NCBI RefSeq assembly: GCF_013466605.1
Contig: NZ_CP059162.1
Location: forward strand, 2,480,001 to 2,544,000
From: Pseudomonas chlororaphis subsp. aurantiaca
GTDB taxonomy: Bacteria; Pseudomonadota; Gammaproteobacteria; Pseudomonadales; Pseudomonadaceae
Reading direction: 5' to 3'
Length of the DNA: 64,000 nt
Positions 32,028 through 42,692 of the stretch are shown here, piece by piece. Numbering within the stretch: the stretch's first letter is position 1; every line of letters starts with the position of its first letter. The notes beneath the pieces were generated by a model that had not been told where the DNA came from, ran no database searches, and saw only the letters and a program-made list of their open reading frames with translations. The translations under genes were made by a program, and so were the position numbers.

Positions 32028-34229
32028 TCAGTTGGCTTGAGCCGTCACCTTGGCCCGCGCCGCGTGCAGCTTCTTGTAGCTGTCGATCAGGCGCAGGTGG
32101 CGGTCGATCCCTTCCAGCTTCATGCTGGTCGGCGTCAGGCCATAGAAGCGCACGCTGCCATTCACCGAGCCAATCACCGCATCCATCCGCTCGTTGCCAA
32201 ACATGCGACGGAAATTGGCTTCGTAATCCGCCAGGTCCAGATCTTCGTCGAGTTCCATCTCCAGCACCGCATTCATCGCCTGGTAAAACAGGCCACGCTC
32301 GGCGGTGTTGTCGTTGTACTGCAGGAACATCTCCACGCACTCCTTGGCTTCTTCATATTGCTGCAAGGCCAGGAAGATCAGCAGCTTCAACTCCAGGATG
32401 GTCAGTTGGCCCCAGGCGGTGTTGTCGTCGAACTCGATGCCGATCAGGGTGGTGATATCGGTGTAGTCGTCCAGCTCGCTTTCTATCAGGCGCTCGAGCA
32501 ACGCCTGCAACTCATCCTCGTCGAGGCTGTGCAGGTTGAGGATGTCGGAGCGGAAGAACAGTGCCTTGTTGGTGTTGTCCCAGATCAGGTCTTCCACCGG
32601 GTAGATTTCCGAGTAGTCCGGCACCAGGATGCGGCAGGCGGTGGCACCCAGGTGCTCGTACACGGCCATGTAGGACTCTTTGCCCATGCCTTTGAGAATG
32701 CCGAACAAGGTCGCGGCTTCCTGGGCGTTGGAGTCTTCGCCTTGGCCTGAGAAGTCCCACTCGACGAATTCATAATCCGACCGGGCGCTGAAGAAGCGCC
32801 ACGACACCACGCCGCTGGAGTCGATGAAGTGCTCGACGAAGTTGTTCGGCTCGGTGACCGCCTGGCCTTCGAACGTCGGCGGCGGCAAATCGTTCAAGCC
32901 CTCGAAACTGCGGCCTTGCAGCAGTTCGGTGAGGCTGCGCTCCAGCGCCACTTCCATGCTTGGGTGAGCGCCGAACGAGGCAAACACGCCACCGGTACGC
33001 GGGTTCATCAGGGTCACGCACATCACCGGGAACTCACCGCCCAGCGACGCATCCTTGACCAGTACCGGAAAGCCCTGGGCTTCCAGGCCCTGGATGCCGG
33101 CGAGAATCCCCGGGTATTTGGCCAATACGTGCGCCGGTACATCCGGCAGGGCGAATTCGCCCTCGATGATTTCGCGTTTGACGGCGCGCTCGAAGATCTC
33201 CGACAGGCACTGCACCTGGGCTTCGGCCAGGGTGTTGCCGGCGCTCATGCCGTTGCTGAGGTAGAGGTTTTCGATCAGGTTGGATGGGAAGTACACCACT
33301 TCTCCGTCCGACTGGCGCACGAACGGCAGCGAAACAATGCCGCGCTCTTCATTGCCGGAATTGGTGTCGAACAGGTGCGAGCCGCGCAGTTCGCCATCGC
33401 GGTTGTAGATTTTCAGGCAGTAGGGGTCGAGGATTTCGCTGGGCAGCTCATCATTGCGGCCAGGCTTGAACCAGCGCTCGTCCGGGTAATGCACGAACGG
33501 CGCGTTGGCGATTTCCTCGCCCCAGAACTGATCGTTGTAGAAGAAGTTGCAGTTCAGGCGCTCGATGAACTCGCCCAGCGCCGAGGCCAGCGCGCTTTCC
33601 TTGGTCGCGCCCTTGCCGTTGGTGAAGCACATCGGCGACTGCGCGTCGCGGATATGCAGCGACCAGACGTTGGGCACGATATTGCGCCACGACGCGATCT
33701 CGATCTTCATGCCCAGGCCGGCCAGGATGCCGGACATGTTGGCGATGGTCTGTTCCAGCGGCAGGTCCTTGCCGGCGATATAGGTGCTGTGCGAACCCGT
33801 GCTCGGCATCAACAGGGCCTGGGCATCGGCGTCGAGGTTTTCCACCTCTTCAATCACAAACTCAGGTCCGGCCTGTACCACTTTCTTGACGGTGCAACGG
33901 TCGATGGAGCGCAGGATGCCCTGGCGGTCCTTGTCGGAGATATCCGCCGGCAACTCGACCTGGATCTTGAAGATCTGGTTGTAGCGGTTTTCCGGATCGA
34001 CAATGTTGTTCTGCGACAGGCGAATGTTATCGGTGGGGATATTGCGGGTGTCGCAGTACAACTTCACGAAGTACGCCGCGCACAACGCCGATGACGCCAG
34101 GAAATAGTCGAACGGTCCCGGTGCCGAGCCATCGCCCTTGTAGCGGATGGGCTGGTCGGCCACCACCGTGAAGTCATCGAACTTGGCTTCAAGTCGGAGG
34201 TTGTCGAGAAAGTTGACCTTGATTTCCAT
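32028..34229 (-). CDS. ycaO: OsmC-YcaO fusion protein with C-terminal helical repeat
   Basis: 733 residues. Residues about 1-140 are OsmC-like (GPFDYFLASSALCAAYFVKL, with DRCTVKKV), residues about 150-560 a YcaO domain, and the last 170 a helical, TPR-like tail. YcaO ATP/magnesium motifs are visible as SALASALGEFIERL (SxxxExxER) and QCLSEIFERAVK (QxxxExxER). E. coli YcaO supports beta-methylthiolation of ribosomal protein S12; other members activate amide backbones. No peptide-precursor or partner gene is adjacent, which favours the housekeeping type. The ATG start has no clear ribosome site. Confidence 0.88.
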   Translation of the reverse strand: MEIKVNFLDNLRLEAKFDDFTVVADQPIRYKGDGSAPGPFDYFLASSALCAAYFVKLYCDTRNIPTDNIRLSQNNIVDPENRYNQIFKIQVELPADISDKDRQGILRSIDRCTVKKVVQAGPEFVIEEVENLDADAQALLMPSTGSHSTYIAGKDLPLEQTIANMSGILAGLGMKIEIASWRNIVPNVWSLHIRDAQSPMCFTNGKGATKESALASALGEFIERLNCNFFYNDQFWGEEIANAPFVHYPDERWFKPGRNDELPSEILDPYCLKIYNRDGELRGSHLFDTNSGNEERGIVSLPFVRQSDGEVVYFPSNLIENLYLSNGMSAGNTLAEAQVQCLSEIFERAVKREIIEGEFALPDVPAHVLAKYPGILAGIQGLEAQGFPVLVKDASLGGEFPVMCVTLMNPRTGGVFASFGAHPSMEVALERSLTELLQGRSFEGLNDLPPPTFEGQAVTEPNNFVEHFIDSSGVVSWRFFSARSDYEFVEWDFSGQGEDSNAQEAATLFGILKGMGKESYMAVYEHLGATACRILVPDYSEIYPVEDLIWDNTNKALFFRSDILNLHSLDEDELQALLERLIESELDDYTDITTLIGIEFDDNTAWGQLTILELKLLIFLALQQYEEAKECVEMFLQYNDNTAERGLFYQAMNAVLEMELDEDLDLADYEANFRRMFGNERMDAVIGSVNGSVRFYGLTPTSMKLEGIDRHLRLIDSYKKLHAARAKVTAQAN

Positions 34230-34533: not shown

Positions 34534-34557
34534 GTGACTATATATCTTATCGGTCAC
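34534..34557. promoter_or_regulatory. 24-bp inverted repeat, copy A (tetR promoter)
   Basis: GTGAC-N14-GTCAC: GTGACTATATAT then CTTATCGGTCAC. It ends 38 bases before the TetR start codon and contains TATATAT, usable as a -10 element. Same length and arms as three further copies at the porin and efflux promoters, so autorepression is likely. The 366 bases between ycaO and tetR hold nothing else I can identify. Confidence 0.8.
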
Positions 34558-34595
34558 AAGTTGTCAGTCCGCCATAGGGTGAGTAAGCTGTTCCC

Positions 34596-35216
34596 ATGAA
34601 TCAGCCATCGATATCTTCGCCCAGCGCCCGCGGCCCAGCCGATCACGACATTCGAAACCAGATTGTCGCGGCGGCCAACGAACACTTCAGCCAGTACGGC
34701 TATGGCAAAACCACGGTCTCCGACCTGGCTAAAGCCATCGGCTTTTCCAAGGCCTATATCTACAAGTTTTTTGATTCCAAGCAGGCGATCGGTGAAGCCA
34801 TCTGTACAAATTGTCTGGCAGAAATCGTTGCGGCTGTCGAGCAGGCCATCAATGTCGAGACCCTTTCGCCAACGGAGCGCTTTCGACGCTTGGTCAAAAC
34901 GGTGATCGCCACAGGGGTGAACCTGTTCTTCAATGACCGGAAACTCTATGACATCGCCGCGTTTTCTGTGTCGGAGCGTTGGCCCAGCTCGCAAATTTAT
35001 GACGCCCAGATCAAGCAATTCATTTTGCAAATTGTGCGTGAAGGGCGAGAGGTAGGTGAGTTCGAACGCAAGACTCCCCTGGACGAGACAGTAGAGGCGA
35101 TACATCTTGCTCTGCGGCCATTCGTCAATCCGCTACTGCTGCAGTACAACCTCGATTTCGTCGAAGAGGCGCCCACGCTCACTTCCAACCTCATCTTGCG
35201 TAGCCTCATGCCTTGA
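34596..35216 (+). CDS. TetR-family repressor of the porin/RND cluster
   Basis: 206 residues. N-terminal helix-turn-helix (about 25-70: IVAAANEHFSQYGYGKTTVS, then DLAKAIGFSKAYIYKFFDSK). The ligand-binding C-terminal domain is of the TetR type seen next to RND pumps. The putative operator overlaps its own promoter and recurs in front of the FadL-type porin, the outer membrane factor gene and the pump operon, so it probably represses all four units until a hydrophobic ligand binds. The ligand is unknown. Confidence 0.9.
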   Translation: MNQPSISSPSARGPADHDIRNQIVAAANEHFSQYGYGKTTVSDLAKAIGFSKAYIYKFFDSKQAIGEAICTNCLAEIVAAVEQAINVETLSPTERFRRLVKTVIATGVNLFFNDRKLYDIAAFSVSERWPSSQIYDAQIKQFILQIVREGREVGEFERKTPLDETVEAIHLALRPFVNPLLLQYNLDFVEEAPTLTSNLILRSLMP

Positions 35217-35323
35217 CCTTCGGCTAACGGTCGCACGCCTACCAGGCTAAGCGACATATCACTCAATCAGCTTTTCACTTTGCCCTTCCTCCCACCGTCG
35301 AAGGGCATTTATTTATCCGTAAT

Positions 35324-35347
35324 GTGACTGTTGACTGAAATGGTCAC
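35324..35347. promoter_or_regulatory. 24-bp inverted repeat, copy B (porin promoter)
   Basis: GTGACTGTTGAC then TGAAATGGTCAC. Its core holds TTGACT (35331-35336), which with TAAATA at 35353-35358 makes a -35/-10 pair spaced by 16 bases. A bound repressor would cover the -35. It ends 66 bases before the porin ATG. Confidence 0.8.
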
Positions 35348-35413
35348 GTGAATAAATATGGTCGTCCGTTGTTTCTACCCTTTCATCTCGGCGATAACCA
35401 TAGAGTTCCAATA

Positions 35414-36685
35414 ATGAAAAAAATATTGCTCAAGAGCCCACTTGGCCTCGCTGTTGTGCTCGCATCTTCCCATGTGTTTGCGAGCGGTTTCGCTCTCAAT
35501 GAACAGAGCGTCAGTGGGATGGGCTCTGGATTTGCCGGTCGCTCTTCCTCTGCTGAAGATGCGAGCACGGTCTTCGGCAATCCGGCGGGCATGTCTCGTC
35601 TGAAAAGAGAACAAGCCAGCGTAGGGGCGGCGACTCTTTTCGCGAAGTCCGACATAAGCCAGACCCGCGGTACATTCGGAGGCCAGGAAGACGGCGACAT
35701 GGTGCCTGCGACTACGGTGCCTATGGGGTACTACGTCAAACCCATTGATGAGCATTGGGCGTTCGGTGTTGGGTTTTATGTGCCTTTTGGCCTGATCACC
35801 GATTATGGCAGCGGCTTTGCGGGGCGTTACTACGCCAACAAAAGCGAGGTCACGACCCTTACGTTCCAACCCACCATCAGCTATGCCTTTAACGACACAG
35901 TTTCGATCGGGTTCGGCCCCACCATCAACCGTATCAGCGGCGAGTTGTCCGGGATGGTGCCCAATCCGCTCAGCCCTGGTCGCAACGACGGAAAACTCAA
36001 AAGCACGGGCGACGACACGGCCCTCGGTTTCAACGCCGGCATTCTGGTGCAGGCTACAGATCGAACTCGCCTCGGCTTGACCTACCACTCCAAGGTTAGT
36101 TACCACCTGGATGCCAAGACCAAGGTCACCGACGGCATCTTTAGCGTGTTGGGGGTCAGTGGCCGAAGCTATGACGCGTCGCTGGATGTGGATACGCCGG
36201 AATCAGTGGATTTCTCGGTGACTCATCAGCTCAATAATGACTGGACCCTGTATCTGGGGAGCACCTGGACCCGCTGGAGTCGCTTCAAGGAACTGACCAT
36301 CGAGAACACGGGTTTGCCCCCTTTGTTGAGCGGCTCGCTGGGCACTGTTACCGAAGAACAGAATTGGCGTGATACGTGGGCTCACGCTATCGGTACGTCG
36401 TACCAACTGAACAACCATTGGGTTCTTCGGGCAGGCTTGTCAGTCGACCAGTCGCCCGCCAACAACACCAATCGTGGACCACGTATTCCAACGGGCGACC
36501 GAACGGTTATCAGCTTCGGTGCAGGCTGGACCCCGGTGGACAATGTCACGATCGACGTTGCTTATTCCTATCTGTGGGAAGAGAGCGTGCAGGTCAACGA
36601 TACTTCCGCAAGCCGGGGCGCATACAGTGCCAAGTATAAGAACAGTGCGAGCGGGCTCGGCACTTCCGTCAGCTATCGTTTCTGA
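35414..36685 (+). CDS. FadL/TodX-type outer membrane transporter
   Basis: 423 residues from MKKILLKSPLGLAVVLASSH, a signal peptide cleaved about ASG-F. The mature start SGFALNEQSVSGMGSGFAGR and the NPA motif in TVFGNPAGMS are family hallmarks, and the C-terminus ends in aromatic F (VSYRF) as expected for a beta-barrel. FadL homologues import long-chain fatty acids or aromatic and terpenoid hydrophobics across the outer membrane. It is placed with a repressor and an efflux pump rather than with degradative genes. An in-frame start 22 codons earlier is less likely because it would displace the signal peptide. Confidence 0.9.
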   Translation: MKKILLKSPLGLAVVLASSHVFASGFALNEQSVSGMGSGFAGRSSSAEDASTVFGNPAGMSRLKREQASVGAATLFAKSDISQTRGTFGGQEDGDMVPATTVPMGYYVKPIDEHWAFGVGFYVPFGLITDYGSGFAGRYYANKSEVTTLTFQPTISYAFNDTVSIGFGPTINRISGELSGMVPNPLSPGRNDGKLKSTGDDTALGFNAGILVQATDRTRLGLTYHSKVSYHLDAKTKVTDGIFSVLGVSGRSYDASLDVDTPESVDFSVTHQLNNDWTLYLGSTWTRWSRFKELTIENTGLPPLLSGSLGTVTEEQNWRDTWAHAIGTSYQLNNHWVLRAGLSVDQSPANNTNRGPRIPTGDRTVISFGAGWTPVDNVTIDVAYSYLWEESVQVNDTSASRGAYSAKYKNSASGLGTSVSYRF

Positions 36686-36817
36686 TAGATAGAGCACCGT
36701 TCTACGATAATTGTCCGGTCGGGAGCGCTCGTTACGCCCCGGCCTTGTAAAGCACATCCCTGGCATTTCCCCTTGGAGGGAAGCGGTTTCGTCGGAGCGC
36801 CACGTCGCCTGGTCAAG

Positions 36818-38278
36818 TCATCGAGCCGCTACGGACCGGGTCTCAGGAGGTTGCCAGCCACCACCGAGCGCCTTGAATGCCGCGACCGCCGCCCGTGCCG
36901 ATTCCGTCCGCGCCTGCGCTCGGGCATCGGAAGCCTGCAGCATCGTTTCGTCGGCGTGCAGAACATCAATCAGACTGGCCGTGCCTTTTTCGTAGGCAAT
37001 GAACGACGATTGGCGAGCCTGTGCCAGAGATGCCTCGCCTCCAGTCAGAGTGGCTGCCTGAGCGTCCCGGTTCACCAGGGCGGAGAAGGCATTCTCGACA
37101 TCCTCGGTGGCGCGTAATACCGACTGACGGTAAGCGGCCAGGGCTTCGGCTTCTTGTCCCTTGGCTTGATCGATTTGAGCGTTTATGCGGCCAAAGTCGA
37201 AAAGTCTCCAGCGCAGCCCCAGTACACCCGCCGACTGATTGGCGCCGCCGGTGAAAAGGTTGCCGCCGGATACAGCCGTGGCGCTACCGAGCAATGCGCT
37301 GAGGGAGAATTTCGGGTAGTACTCAGCGATCGCCACCCCGATGCGTGCATTGGAGGCTGCCAGGCGGCGCTCAGCCACAATGAGATCCGGCCTGCGGCGC
37401 AGCAGATCGGCCGGCGTTCCCGTGGCCTTTATCTGCGGCGCAAGAGGAATACTCCCGGCATTTGCCAGTTGCGTGCGATGGGTGCCTGGCGGTGTACCGA
37501 GCATTACATCCAGTGCATTCATGGCAGCATCCAGGCCGGTCTGCAGGACTGGCACTGTCGCTTGGACCTGCGATAGCGCTCCCTCAGTCTGGTGAACCTG
37601 ATAGTGGGCAGCGAGGCCCTTGCCGTAGAGCAAGCGGACTTTCTCCAGCAGTCCCTGCTGGGTTTTGACTTGTCGGTTGGCAATGTCCAGCCGGGCCTGC
37701 AATCCGCGGATGGTGATGTAGATATCGGCGGTTTGCGCGGCGATGGCCAGTCGTGTGGCAGCGGCGCCCGCCTCGGAGGCCTGGTACTCGGCGAGTGCGG
37801 CTTCGCGTCCGCGTCGCAGGCCGCCAAAGACATCAATCTCCCAGCCAGCACCGAGGTTAACCTCGTAGGCGCTTCCGTACCGATCATAGCCAGGCGTTGA
37901 GTTCAACACCTGGCCGAGTGGAGTCTCGATTGATTGGTAGGAGCGCGCGGCCTGACCACTGATGTTCCCCGAGGGCAGCAAGGCGGCATTTGCGGCACCC
38001 AATCCTGCCCGTGCCTGCGTAACTCGCGCCGACGCCTGCGCCAGATCCAGGTTCTGTTCAAGAGCCTTGGAGACGAAGTCGGCTAGCACCGGATCACCAA
38101 AACCTTCCCACCAGGCCACAAGACTGGCCGGCGTCGCTACAGGTCTCAGCTCGACAGCGGACTGACCCAGGTAACGATCCGAAAGAGGAGCGTCCGGACG
38201 TTGATAGTCCGGACCGACCGCGCAGCCTGCCATCAAGCTGGCGCTCACCAAAAGAGCAAGGGGGCGAAGGGAAGGCAT
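36818..38278 (-). CDS. RND efflux outer membrane factor (OprM/NodT family lipoprotein)
   Basis: 486 residues. Lipobox LMAGC with the cysteine near residue 19, then AVGPDYQRPDAP, the standard opening of OprM-type channels. Two internally similar halves of long helices plus barrel strands (AWWEGFGDPVLADFVSKAL; YYPKFSLSALLGSA; LDVMLG; DLLRRRPDLI) are visible. It forms the TolC-like tunnel for the divergent membrane-fusion protein and RND pump. Unusually, it is encoded divergently rather than as the third gene of the pump operon. Confidence 0.92.
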   Translation of the reverse strand: MPSLRPLALLVSASLMAGCAVGPDYQRPDAPLSDRYLGQSAVELRPVATPASLVAWWEGFGDPVLADFVSKALEQNLDLAQASARVTQARAGLGAANAALLPSGNISGQAARSYQSIETPLGQVLNSTPGYDRYGSAYEVNLGAGWEIDVFGGLRRGREAALAEYQASEAGAAATRLAIAAQTADIYITIRGLQARLDIANRQVKTQQGLLEKVRLLYGKGLAAHYQVHQTEGALSQVQATVPVLQTGLDAAMNALDVMLGTPPGTHRTQLANAGSIPLAPQIKATGTPADLLRRRPDLIVAERRLAASNARIGVAIAEYYPKFSLSALLGSATAVSGGNLFTGGANQSAGVLGLRWRLFDFGRINAQIDQAKGQEAEALAAYRQSVLRATEDVENAFSALVNRDAQAATLTGGEASLAQARQSSFIAYEKGTASLIDVLHADETMLQASDARAQARTESARAAVAAFKALGGGWQPPETRSVAAR

Positions 38279-38304
38279 TAAGGTTCCTTCAATCGAGGAT
38301 GTTT

Positions 38305-38328
38305 GTGACTATATTACGTTATGGTCAC
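38305..38328. promoter_or_regulatory. 24-bp inverted repeat, copy C (outer membrane factor promoter)
   Basis: GTGACTATATTA then CGTTATGGTCAC. Reading on the minus strand, TTGACA (38333-38338) and TAATAT (38311-38316) form a -35/-10 pair with 16-base spacing, and the -10 lies inside the repeat. It is 26 bases before the outer membrane factor ATG. Confidence 0.82.
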
Positions 38329-38426
38329 GAGCTGTCAATCAACGGTATTGGCCAGTATTTCAAAAAATACTCAATGAATACGGTATTTTTCGCGTAGTCG
38401 CGGGCAGTCTCAATGGATGATTATTT

Positions 38427-38450
38427 GTGACTATTGACAGATATGGTCAC
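38427..38450. promoter_or_regulatory. 24-bp inverted repeat, copy D (pump operon promoter)
   Basis: GTGACTATTGAC then AGATATGGTCAC. It contains TTGACA (38434-38439); GAGAAT 17 bases on could serve as -10. It ends 46 bases before the membrane-fusion ATG and lies 98 bases from copy C, so one divergent control region serves both halves of the efflux system. Confidence 0.82.
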
Positions 38451-38496
38451 TGTGCTGAGAATGTGGGGCATGTCCTATTGTTCAGTAAGGGAACCT

Positions 38497-39606
38497 ATGC
38501 GCCGGCCTCGACCTGTCCCCATTGCCGCTTGCTTGTTGCCTCTAGTCCTGGCGGCGTGTGGCGACTCATCCACCGTTGAAGATCCCCGCACCCATGCCCC
38601 TCTGGTGAGGGCCTCTGCGGTTCAGGGGGCGTCCGACGTTTCACGCTCCTTCACTGGCGTCGTGGCGGCCCGCGTCCAGGGCGACCTGGGCTTTCGGGTA
38701 TCAGGCAAGATACTTGAGCGCTTGGTCGATACGGGGCAGACCGTCAAGCGAGGTCAGCCGCTCATGCGTCTCGACCCAATCGACCTGGGGTTGCAGGCGC
38801 GAGCACAGCAAGAGTCGGTCATGGCTGCTCGGGCCCGAGCCAGGCAGACAGCTGATGATGAGGCCCGATATCGCGACCTGGTCGGCGCAGGTGCTATTTC
38901 TGCATCGGCGTACGATCAGATCAAAGCCGCGGCTGATACCGCAAAGGCGCAGCTCAGCGCAGCTCAAGCGCAGGCCGACGTGGCTCGCAATGCTTCCGGT
39001 TATGCGGTGCTGTTTGCCGATTCCGACGGCGTTGTGGTGGAGACGCTCGCCGAGCCCGGGCAAGTCGTCAGCCCAGGGCAGCCTGTGGTTCGACTGGCGC
39101 GGGCCGGGCAGCGTGAAGCCATCGTGCACCTGCCCGAGACACTACGCCCGGCAGCAGGATCCACTGCACAGGCGACGCTTTACGGCAACACCGCGGATGC
39201 TGTTACAGCGAAGCTGAGGCTGCTGTCTGACTCGGCCGACCGTATGACGCGCACCTTTGAGGCGCGGTATGTGCTTGAGGGTGCGTTGGCCAATGCGCCG
39301 TTAGGTTCGACCGTCACGCTTCGGATCGCCGAAGGCGCCGCACATGGACAGGTGCTGCAAGTGCCGATCGCTGCTGTTTATGACCCGGGCAAAGGCACTG
39401 GCGTGTGGGTCATCGCTGGCGAACCAGCGAAGGTGACCTGGCGACCTGTCCGGGTCCTGGGTTTGAGCGACGACGCAGCGCGAGTTACAGGCGATCTCAA
39501 GGCCGGCGAGCAGATTGTAGCCTTAGGTGCACATCTGCTGCGCGATGGTGAGGAGGTGAGACTGGCTCGACAGGGTGACGTCAAAGTTGCCGGGAGCCAT
39601 CCATGA
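38497..39606 (+). CDS. RND efflux membrane-fusion lipoprotein
   Basis: 369 residues from MRRPRPVPIAACLLPLVLAA, lipobox LAAC; AAGGG precedes the ATG by about five bases. The adaptor architecture is in order: first lipoyl/barrel half (GDLGFRVSGKILERLVDTGQ), helical hairpin (about 100-155), second lipoyl half (SDGVVVETLAEPGQVV), beta-barrel and membrane-proximal domains. It bridges the pump and the outer membrane channel. The stop overlaps the pump start (ATGA), so the two are coupled. Confidence 0.93.
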   Translation: MRRPRPVPIAACLLPLVLAACGDSSTVEDPRTHAPLVRASAVQGASDVSRSFTGVVAARVQGDLGFRVSGKILERLVDTGQTVKRGQPLMRLDPIDLGLQARAQQESVMAARARARQTADDEARYRDLVGAGAISASAYDQIKAAADTAKAQLSAAQAQADVARNASGYAVLFADSDGVVVETLAEPGQVVSPGQPVVRLARAGQREAIVHLPETLRPAAGSTAQATLYGNTADAVTAKLRLLSDSADRMTRTFEARYVLEGALANAPLGSTVTLRIAEGAAHGQVLQVPIAAVYDPGKGTGVWVIAGEPAKVTWRPVRVLGLSDDAARVTGDLKAGEQIVALGAHLLRDGEEVRLARQGDVKVAGSHP

Positions 39607-42600
39607 GCCAGGGGCGCTTCAATCTTTCGGCGATCGCTGTTCGCGAGCGCTCGATCACGGTATTCCTGATCTTCTTGCTCGCTGTGGCAGGGATCCTGTC
39701 GTTTTTCCAGCTGGGGCGTGCCGAAGACCCGCCGTTTACGGTCAAGCAGCTGACGGTCATTACCGCGTGGCCGGGCGCCACGGCGCAGGAGATGCAGGAC
39801 CAGGTTGCAGAGCCACTTGAAAAACGCCTGCAAGAACTGAAATGGTACGACCGCACGGAAACCTACACCCGTCCAGGTCTCGCCTTCACCATGGTGACGC
39901 TGCTCGATCGCACACCGCCTTCTCAAGTGCAGGAGGAGTTCTATCAGGCGCGTAAAAAGCTCGACGATGAGGCCATCAAGTTACCGGCGGGTGTGGTTGG
40001 CCCGATGGTCAACGACGAGTTTGCAGATGTGACATTTGCGCTTTTCGCCTTGAAAGCCAAAGGCGAGCCGCAGCGACTGTTGGTGCGTGATGCGGAATCG
40101 TTGCGCCAGCGCCTGTTGCACGTGCCGGGCGTGAAGAAGGTCAGCATCATTGGTGAGCAGGCCGAACGCATCTTTGTTTCCTTCTCCCATGATCGGTTGG
40201 CCACGCTGGGCGTATCTCCCCAGGACATTTTTGCCGCGCTGAACAATCAGAACGCGCTCACGCCTGCCGGCTCAATTGAAACCGATGGGCCGCAAGTCTT
40301 CCTCCGCCTCGACGGTGCCTTCGATAAGGTGCAGAAGATTCGTGACACACCTCTTGCGGTCCAAGGTCGAACACTGAAGCTCTCGGACGTGGCGACGGTC
40401 GAGCGGGGTTATGAAGATCCGGCAACCTTCCTCGTGCGTAACAACGGTGAAGAGGCCCTGTTACTGGGCGTCGTGATGCGTGAGGGCTGGAACGGCCTTG
40501 ACCTGGGCAAGGCATTGGACGCGGAGACGACGAAGATCAATGACGGCATGCCGCTGGGCATGACGCTCACCAAGGTCACCGACCAGTCTGTGAATATCAG
40601 TTCGGCCGTCGACGAGTTCATGGTCAAGTTCTTCGTCGCCCTGCTGGTGGTCATGCTTGTCTGCTTTCTCAGCATGGGCTGGCATGTAGGTATTGTGGTG
40701 GCGGCGGCTGTGCCGCTGACGCTGGCCGTGGTGTTTGTGGTGATGGCGGCCACTGGAAAGAACTTTGACCGCATTACCCTCGGGTCGCTGATTCTGGCGC
40801 TTGGACTGCTGGTGGACGACGCCATCATTGCTATCGAGATGATGGTGGTGAAAATGGAGGAGGGCTACGACCGCATCAAGGCTTCCGCCTATGCCTGGAG
40901 TCATACGGCCGCACCGATGCTTTCCGGTACGCTGGTGACCGCTATCGGCTTTTTGCCCAATGGCTTCGCCCAGTCGACGGCCGGCGAGTACACCAGCAAC
41001 ATGTTCTGGATCGTGGGCATTGCCCTGATTGCATCATGGGTAGTGGCGGTGGCCTTCACTCCCTATCTGGGTGTGAAGCTGTTGCCGAAGATCAAGACGG
41101 TCGAAGGGGGTCACGCGGCCATCTACAACACCCCTGGCTACAACCGCTTCCGCCGGATCTTGACGCGCGTCATCGCCCGTAAATGGCTGGTGGCCGGTGC
41201 CGTTATCGCTACGTTTGTCGTGGCGATTCTCGGCATGGGCCTGGTCAAGAAGCAGTTCTTCCCCACCTCGGACCGTCCAGAAGTGTTGGTCGAAGTGCAA
41301 ATGCCCTATGGAACCTCCATCGAGCAGACCAGCGCCACCACCGCCAAGATTGAGGCCTGGCTGCAAAAGCAGGCTGAAGCCAAAATCGTCACGGCCTATA
41401 TCGGGCAAGGTGCGCCGCGCTTCTACCTGGCGATGGCGCCGGAACTCCCGGATCCATCATTCGCCAAGGTTGTGGTGCTGACGGATAGTCAGGAGGCACG
41501 TGAGGCCCTCAAGTTCCGTATTCGTGAGGCAGTTGCTCAAGGGCTTGCCCCAGAAGCGCGTGTCAGGGTTACGCAGCTGGTGTTCGGTCCGTATTCGCCA
41601 TTTCCTGTGGCATATCGGGTGATGGGGCCTGACCCATCAAAATTGCGCGAGATCGCCGACCAGGTACAGAAAGTGATGCAGGCGAGTCCCATGATGAGAA
41701 CCGTCAACACTGACTGGGGCCCGCTAACGCCGACGCTGCATTTCACCCTGGATCAGGATCGCTTGCAGGCGGTGGGGCTGACGTCCAGCGCTGTCGCGCA
41801 GCAGCTGCAGTTCCTGCTCGCGGGAGTACCGATCACGGCAGTTCGTGAGGACATTCGTTCGGTGCAGGTGATCGGGCGTGCTGCGGGTGATATCCGGCTC
41901 GACCCTGCAAAAATAGAAGGCTTTACGCTCGTGGGCACGGCGGGCCAGCGGATTCCGTTGTCCCAGGTAGGGGAAGTCGGCGTGCGTATGGAGGATCCGA
42001 TCCTTCGGCGTCGTGACCGCACCCCGACCATTACCGTGCGCGGCGACATTGCCGAAGGCTTGCAGCCACCGGACGTCTCGAGCGTGATCATGAAGGCGCT
42101 GCAGCCGGTCATCGACAAGCTGCCTGATGGGTATCGTATCGAGCAGTCGGGGGCCATTGAGGAGTCGGGCAAGGCCGGCCAGGCGATATTGCCGCTGCTC
42201 CCGATCATGATTGCCATCACGCTGCTGATCATCATCCTGCAGGTACGCTCGACCTCGGCGATGATCATGGTGTTTCTCACCGCGCCGCTGGGATTGATTG
42301 GCGTGGTACCGACATTGCTCATCTTCCAGCAACCGTTTGGTATCAACGCCCTGGTCGGCCTGATCGCACTTTCGGGCATTCTGATGCGTAATACGCTGAT
42401 TCTGATTGGACAAATCCATCACAACGCACAAGAAGGACTGGATCCGTTCCACGCAGTGATCGAAGCCACAGTACAGCGTGCTCGCCCGGTGTTGCTGACA
42501 GCGCTGGCGGCCATCCTGGCGTTCATCCCCCTGACACACTCCGTCTTCTGGGGGACCCTGGCTTACACCTTGATCGGAGGCACGTTCGTCGGAACCATCA

Positions 42601-42692
42601 TGACGCTGGTGTTCCTGCCGGCGATGTACTCCATCTGGTTCAAGATCAGTCATGTCAGTCAAAGGCAAACTGAAACAGCAGAACTGGCGTAA
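39603..42692 (+). CDS. RND-family efflux pump, AcrB-type
   Basis: 1029 residues, proton-driven inner membrane exporter. First helix SITVFLIFLLAVAGILSFF, then the large periplasmic porter domain with AWPGATAQEMQDQVAEPLEK. The helix 4 proton-relay pair is in ALGLLVDDAIIAIEMM, and a second helix set starts near residue 870 (LPIMIAITLLIIILQVRS). The sequence looks closest to the TriC/VexF-like HAE1 branch rather than MexB; I cannot confirm the branch. Substrates are likely hydrophobic compounds sensed by the neighbouring TetR protein. Confidence 0.93.
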   Translation: MSQGRFNLSAIAVRERSITVFLIFLLAVAGILSFFQLGRAEDPPFTVKQLTVITAWPGATAQEMQDQVAEPLEKRLQELKWYDRTETYTRPGLAFTMVTLLDRTPPSQVQEEFYQARKKLDDEAIKLPAGVVGPMVNDEFADVTFALFALKAKGEPQRLLVRDAESLRQRLLHVPGVKKVSIIGEQAERIFVSFSHDRLATLGVSPQDIFAALNNQNALTPAGSIETDGPQVFLRLDGAFDKVQKIRDTPLAVQGRTLKLSDVATVERGYEDPATFLVRNNGEEALLLGVVMREGWNGLDLGKALDAETTKINDGMPLGMTLTKVTDQSVNISSAVDEFMVKFFVALLVVMLVCFLSMGWHVGIVVAAAVPLTLAVVFVVMAATGKNFDRITLGSLILALGLLVDDAIIAIEMMVVKMEEGYDRIKASAYAWSHTAAPMLSGTLVTAIGFLPNGFAQSTAGEYTSNMFWIVGIALIASWVVAVAFTPYLGVKLLPKIKTVEGGHAAIYNTPGYNRFRRILTRVIARKWLVAGAVIATFVVAILGMGLVKKQFFPTSDRPEVLVEVQMPYGTSIEQTSATTAKIEAWLQKQAEAKIVTAYIGQGAPRFYLAMAPELPDPSFAKVVVLTDSQEAREALKFRIREAVAQGLAPEARVRVTQLVFGPYSPFPVAYRVMGPDPSKLREIADQVQKVMQASPMMRTVNTDWGPLTPTLHFTLDQDRLQAVGLTSSAVAQQLQFLLAGVPITAVREDIRSVQVIGRAAGDIRLDPAKIEGFTLVGTAGQRIPLSQVGEVGVRMEDPILRRRDRTPTITVRGDIAEGLQPPDVSSVIMKALQPVIDKLPDGYRIEQSGAIEESGKAGQAILPLLPIMIAITLLIIILQVRSTSAMIMVFLTAPLGLIGVVPTLLIFQQPFGINALVGLIALSGILMRNTLILIGQIHHNAQEGLDPFHAVIEATVQRARPVLLTALAAILAFIPLTHSVFWGTLAYTLIGGTFVGTIMTLVFLPAMYSIWFKISHVSQRQTETAELA

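Follow-up and report, generated by a model that had tools for sequence, protein, structure and literature searches.

In Pseudomonas aeruginosa, the TetR-type repressor MexL is encoded beside the MexJK pump. A related arrangement is present in a 64-kb stretch of the Pseudomonas chlororaphis subsp. aurantiaca genome (the whole stretch of DNA analysed, hereafter the window), where a TetR-family gene (tetR), a FadL-type transporter gene and the genes of a resistance-nodulation-division (RND) tripartite pump are accompanied by four copies of a 24-base palindrome, GTGAC-N14-GTCAC (op1 to op4; Table 1). The window permease is of the MexK subfamily, with genes for a periplasmic adaptor (MFP) and an outer-membrane efflux channel (OMF) at the same locus, and MexK is its nearest solved relative (851.6 bits, against 761 bits for structure 6vej, which we take to be TriC, and 208.6 bits for the next). 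In contrast to MexJK, however, the window cluster includes OMF and FadL genes of its own, and its permease need not be this genome's MexK, since two other permeases of the same genome are 42% and 38% identical to it. A further likeness is offered by P. putida KT2440, in which an RND transporter and a putative KAS II bear the neighbouring locus tags PP_3302 and PP_3303; the passages concerned describe no regulator or operator, unlike the window, and report that, in a strain used for siderophore tests, PP_3302 deletion affected growth only slightly.

The closest described case found is the Pput_2425-2424-2423-fabF2 cluster of P. putida F1 (PMC8319022), in which a TetR gene beside an efflux pump represses its own promoter and that of the pump. 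When Pput_2425 was lost, expression from lacZ fusions to the 200-bp regions preceding Pput_2425 and Pput_2424 rose strongly, and the cotranscribed fabF2 gene then replaced fabB; the words 'operator' and 'palindrom-' are absent from the main text of that report (PMC8319022). The TetR-pump core is thus already known from P. putida, contrary to the view of the initial annotation that no system with this layout had been described, and what is new here is the likely operator and the likely origin of its four copies. Among relatives of the window cluster, compact loci of the class termed B type below (L094, L099 and L100, for example) have the order TetR-MFP-RND-FabF, with one site before TetR and one before MFP, in regions corresponding to the two 200-bp fusions. 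Their TetRs, encoded beside MFP-RND, are about 55–62% identical to the window TetR, and the B-type TetR of L100, used as query, finds 86% matches in two TetRs labelled P. putida (P0032 and P0036). On the strength of gene order and these homologues, not of its own sequence, Pput_2425 may be of B type. The P. putida-labelled homologues are 204 residues long, and five 204-residue frames agree with two published mutations in having TAC-A at nucleotides 157–160 and a GCC codon at position 44; of the five positions tested in all, no locus fitted more than three. The window differs from the P. putida F1 cluster in its A-type repressor, its four operators, its FadL gene, an OMF gene placed under an operator and the lack of fabF2 at the locus.

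A pattern search of the window returns exactly four matches to GTGAC-N14-GTCAC, at the positions initially annotated, each fronting a separate unit: tetR (+), fadL (+), the OMF gene (−) and the MFP-RND operon (+). By comparison, 100 dinucleotide shuffles of the window contain a mean of 0.06 matches (maximum 2), and the whole genome, a single contig of 6.95 Mb, holds the exact pattern at six places, four of them inside this cluster. Sites were scored with a matrix built from the distinct exact sites of relatives' loci, the window's own four included (scores of cluster sites: lowest 10.7, 5% point 19.8, median 31.4). The two exact genomic sites outside the cluster score 10.1 and 6.7 and lie within open frames of 245 and 583 codons, and a search for GTGACT-N12-GGTCAC with one mismatch adds nine further hits, none above 11.7, the best of which just exceeds the lowest cluster site. 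All 11 off-cluster hits sit in open frames of at least 157 codons, and the four cluster sites in frames of 38–124 codons. Shuffle counts, genome count and matrix scores together exclude a chance origin of the four sites, and the repeat is local rather than a frequent genomic word.

The distribution of the palindrome was compared with that of the repressor in 249 sampled genomes of the genus. Relatives of the window TetR with E values no higher than 1e-30 occur in 81 of them, the genome of the window and three with remote relatives (38–46%) included. Wide stretches were taken from 62 of the 80 other TetR genomes (63 stretches; the 18 genomes left out all had close TetRs), and the best 80 of 492 confirmed named loci were added, giving 144 loci with the window; removal of those with identical TetR and RND proteins leaves 130 distinct loci, some cut by contig ends. 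Exact sites number 341 and are spread over 141 of the 144 loci, and in many relatives, as in the window, a site precedes the TetR match by 38 bp. When the motif is tightened to GTGACYATN9TRGTCAC, it is present in 72 of the 249 genomes; comparison of the motif and TetR lists by hand places 70 of these among the 81 genomes with TetR and two (G012 and G029) among the 168 without, and the same pattern read backwards occurs in four genomes. Related clusters are found in betaproteobacteria and Halomonadaceae besides many Pseudomonas, and there an exact site lies within 150 bp on both sides of tetR in all 12 loci. That some other regulator binds the sites, the neighbouring TetR being incidental, is very improbable: the assignment to TetR does rest on sequence comparison, but the motif tracks TetR across the 249 genomes, it flanks tetR on each side in the 12 remote loci, and the homologue Pput_2425 represses the two promoters concerned (PMC8319022).

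Three outgroup clusters, whose TetR differs at 6 of 22 residues of the recognition region, yielded no such site. In the outgroup clusters L106 and L107 the gene order is the same; the OMF-TetR gap reads GTTTACAG...GTTAC, and GTAACCTGTAAAC stands before MFP, sequences that may perhaps represent a diverged operator. Among side observations, L059 has an A-type tetR between two operators, the stretch fetched containing no pump genes, and a B-type cluster (L105) lies elsewhere in that genome (G101); the B-type cluster L081 has two tandem TetR genes with a site on either side of each; and relatives of the B-type TetR at 73–77% are also labelled Pectobacterium, Serratia, Rouxiella and Mangrovibacter.

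Table 1. Features of the locus, with positions counted from the first base of the window; matrix scores as defined in the text.
Feature	Position	Strand	Details
op1, operator before tetR	34534..34557	+	GTGACTATATATCTTATCGGTCAC; matrix score 28.3; 38 bp upstream of tetR
TetR-family repressor gene, A-type	34596..35216	+	206 aa; TetR_N 48.6 bits, TetR_C_27 35 bits, both above Pfam cut-offs
op2, operator before fadL	35324..35347	+	matrix score 32.5; contains −35 TTGACT (35331-35336), 17 bp before AAATAT (35354-35359)
FadL/TodX-type outer-membrane transporter gene	35414..36685	+	423 aa from ATG; Toluene_X 398.7 bits
OMF gene (outer-membrane efflux channel, NodT subfamily)	36818..38278	-	OEP 140.6 bits; TIGR01845 313 bits, above cut-off
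op3, operator before OMF gene	38305..38328	+	matrix score 31.7; contains OMF −10 TAATAT (minus, 38311-38316); OMF −35 TTGACA 38333-38338 (minus)
op3-op4 spacer, 98 bp	38329..38426		place occupied by a B-type tetR gene in L105 and in the dual-repressor loci L054, L126 and L130
op4, operator before MFP-RND	38427..38450	+	matrix score 35.2; contains −35 TTGACA (38434-38439), 17 bp before GAGAAT (38457-38462)
RND periplasmic adaptor (MFP) gene	38497..39606	+	TIGR01730 RND_mfp 199.7 bits, above cut-off
RND permease gene	39603..42692	+	1029 aa; ACR_tran 492.6 bits; nearest solved relative MexK

The overlap of op2, op3 and op4 with promoter hexamers, already recognized in the initial annotation, is conserved across relatives' loci. 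Both op2 and op4 carry the −35 box at site position 8, and op3 carries the −10 box of the OMF gene, with TTGACA just outside. Over all loci, the exact sites before MFP, FadL or TesB genes have TTGAC at position 8 in 169 of 215 cases, and the mean match to TATAAT is highest at a spacing of 17 bp (3.38 of 6, against 3.00 for the runner-up at 14). On the OMF side, an exact TTGACA lies ten bases upstream in 94 of 108 sites, with the −10 inside the site. A repressor bound to such a site would block RNA polymerase, as the −35 or −10 boxes lie under it. Taken with the non-chance occurrence of the sites and the co-occurrence of motif and TetR, this conserved overlap indicates that a single TetR very probably governs all four units (fadL, the OMF gene, MFP-RND and, by self-repression, tetR); the predicted operator at the promoter of tetR itself is op1. 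A common TetR operator for tetR, the FadL-type porin and a tripartite pump with OMF gene and MFP-RND in divergent orientation, as initially proposed, thus appears well founded. A TetR dimer (or dimers) would sit on GTGACYAT-N8-ATRGTCAC, with GTGACYAT as half-site, and by covering the −35 or −10 boxes shut the four promoters; a hydrophobic, perhaps acyl- or lipid-like ligand would release it, switching on importer and pump together.

At op1, positions 34540-34567 hold a minus-strand CTGACA-N16-ATATAT with the geometry of the OMF promoter at op3, directed toward an OsmC-YcaO gene (32031-34229, minus); an OMF-type element at op1 reads TTGTCA in 29 of 45 distinct flanks. The element may be a vestige, or the OsmC-YcaO gene may be under the repressor.

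The window TetR combines a TetR_N DNA-binding domain with a TetR-type ligand domain, and its predicted model has a TetR-type fold (predicted local distance difference test value of 90.8). Comparison with eight B-type proteins shows that residues 45–66 are nearly invariant (21–22 of 22 identical in six, 20 and 18 in the other two); this stretch includes the predicted helix 52–56, the second short helix of the DNA-binding part. Against the same proteins, only 63–80 of the 140 residues 67–206 are identical. A- and B-type repressors would thus read the same operator, so that either could take the place of the other beside a pump. The locus would, if this is true, provide a clear example from nature of a regulon passing from one repressor to another, made possible by an unchanged DNA site and recognition region while the ligand domain diverged. 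For a repressor family that is present in about a third of the sampled genomes, and to which the repressor of the silent fabF2/pump operon in P. putida F1 probably belongs, a likely operator is thereby supplied; the ligand of that operon becomes directly testable with a reporter bearing these sites.

The 130 distinct loci were classed by identity to the window proteins as hybrid (TetR at least 73%, RND at least 85%; n = 51), A (TetR at least 64%, RND 70–85%; n = 36), B (TetR at least 50%, RND at least 70%; n = 27, with the tandem-TetR cluster L081 placed by hand), dual repressor (n = 8) and other (n = 8), and intergenic sites with up to one mismatch were counted per cluster. Two sites are the rule in A (34 of 36) and B (26 of 27) clusters, and four sites in hybrids (33 of 51) and dual-repressor loci (6 of 8). 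The window itself pairs an A-type repressor with a B-type pump. In reduced trees (40 TetR and 38 RND rows; L075, L077, L083, L088, L103, L128 and the outgroups left out), the B-type TetRs form one side of a branch (support 100/99) with the window TetR on the other, and the window RND is grouped with B-type RNDs (100/100). Approximately unbiased (AU) tests against the swapped histories give p values of 0.025 (TetR) and 0.0006 (RND), and fuller trees recover the B-type TetR group at 92/76 and the B-plus-hybrid RND group at 100/99. Given this conflict between TetR and RND trees and the existence of dual-repressor loci, the likeliest account from these comparisons is a merger of two two-operator clusters: a B-type pump cluster (OMF-op3-tetR_B-op4-MFP-RND) would have joined an A-type unit (op1-tetR_A-op2), which brought or gained fadL, and would then have lost its own tetR_B.

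With the same operators and repressor, the four copies could instead have arisen by local operator duplication within one cluster, fadL being inserted with no merger. This alternative gains from the lack of a convincing tetR_B scar, in the window spacer and, past the shared promoter, in six relatives (gap-tolerant test), but we regard it as unlikely, given the disagreement of the two trees, the eight distinct loci that combine the two repressor types (four sites being present in six), and the position of the op3-op4 pair, which is that of tetR_B in other loci. Several findings nevertheless weigh against the merger and the operator assignment with which it is combined. The strict motif is missing in 11 of the 81 TetR genomes, three of them outgroup-like and several others with looser sites. 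Some hybrids have two (12 of 51), three (3 of 51) or five (3 of 51) sites, fadL accompanies an A-type cluster in a single observed case (L160), the AU support from TetR is modest, and the trees do not fix the direction of exchange. No significant tetR_B remnant was detected in the window spacer by shuffle or gap-tolerant test, nor any remnant of an A-type OMF gene left of op1 in 69 flanks. The L064 spacer scores 52 against the tetR_B start region of L054 (shuffle maximum 33), part of this being shared promoter; once the initial 30 bases are set aside, its score is equalled or exceeded by 4 of 300 shuffles for L054 and by 156 of 300 for L105, and in the gap-tolerant test 42–130 of 400 are as good. 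Of seven spacers put through the latter test, that of L046 alone stands out, against L054 only (1 of 400); the L047 spacer, matched by 0 and 2 of 300 shuffles, was not borne out by it. A sequence scar of the lost tetR_B is accordingly not established. Four TetR operators, joint derepression and the merger of two clusters nonetheless form, as a whole, the best explanation, and one that we consider probable.

The genes near the operators in the 130 distinct loci include those for FabF-type ketosynthases (48 loci), FadL (39), short-chain dehydrogenases/reductases (SDR; 37) and acyl-CoA thioesterases (TesB; 13), at least one of the four being nearby in 82 loci; among 39 plus-strand FadL genes in these loci, 27 have a site no more than 260 bp upstream. 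The window locus retains FadL alone, and no FabF gene was found behind its RND gene. The placing of FadL and pump under one repressor, stressed in the initial annotation, is supported in the window by the sites but is not a fixed trait, FadL being optional. Elsewhere in the genome, 187 kb from the cluster, a fabF2-like ketosynthase gene (G000:C1:2327222-2328481) shares 73% identity with the FabF encoded in the L063 cluster, and no exact site lies nearby.

These neighbours hint at acyl or lipid compounds as ligands, and a balance between uptake and export of one hydrophobic signal, as initially suggested, is one possibility; the fold does not choose a ligand class, since FadR and QacR tie in structure comparison of the TetR model. 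Ordinary drug-efflux regulation, in which some unrelated drug or biocide would serve as ligand, with the acyl genes as passengers, has a substantial, if somewhat less than even, chance of being correct. It is at odds with the frequency of acyl genes close by, some directly behind an operator, and with the finding that Pput_2425 loss yields enough FabF2 to replace FabB (PMC8319022). A more elaborate scheme, which we offer as speculative and rather doubtful, is that two diverged repressors recognize one portable 24-bp operator, which allowed either to replace the other in a pump cluster and brought FadL, TesB, SDR and FabF2 together in an acyl-lipid emergency regulon. The ligand would then be a natural inhibitor of fatty-acid synthesis or a toxic acyl compound, which the pump would remove while FabF2 by-passed the blocked condensing enzyme and FadL imported replacement fatty acid. 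A partnership of pump and FabF2 is not favoured by findings in P. putida F1, in which deletion of the pump genes left the fabB-mutant phenotype unchanged and deletion of fabF2 raised resistance to three antibiotics (PMC8319022). The window FadL product belongs to the Toluene_X family and falls below the cut-off of the NCBI FadL equivalog (202.3 bits against 585); a 64% paralogue of it is encoded elsewhere in the genome.
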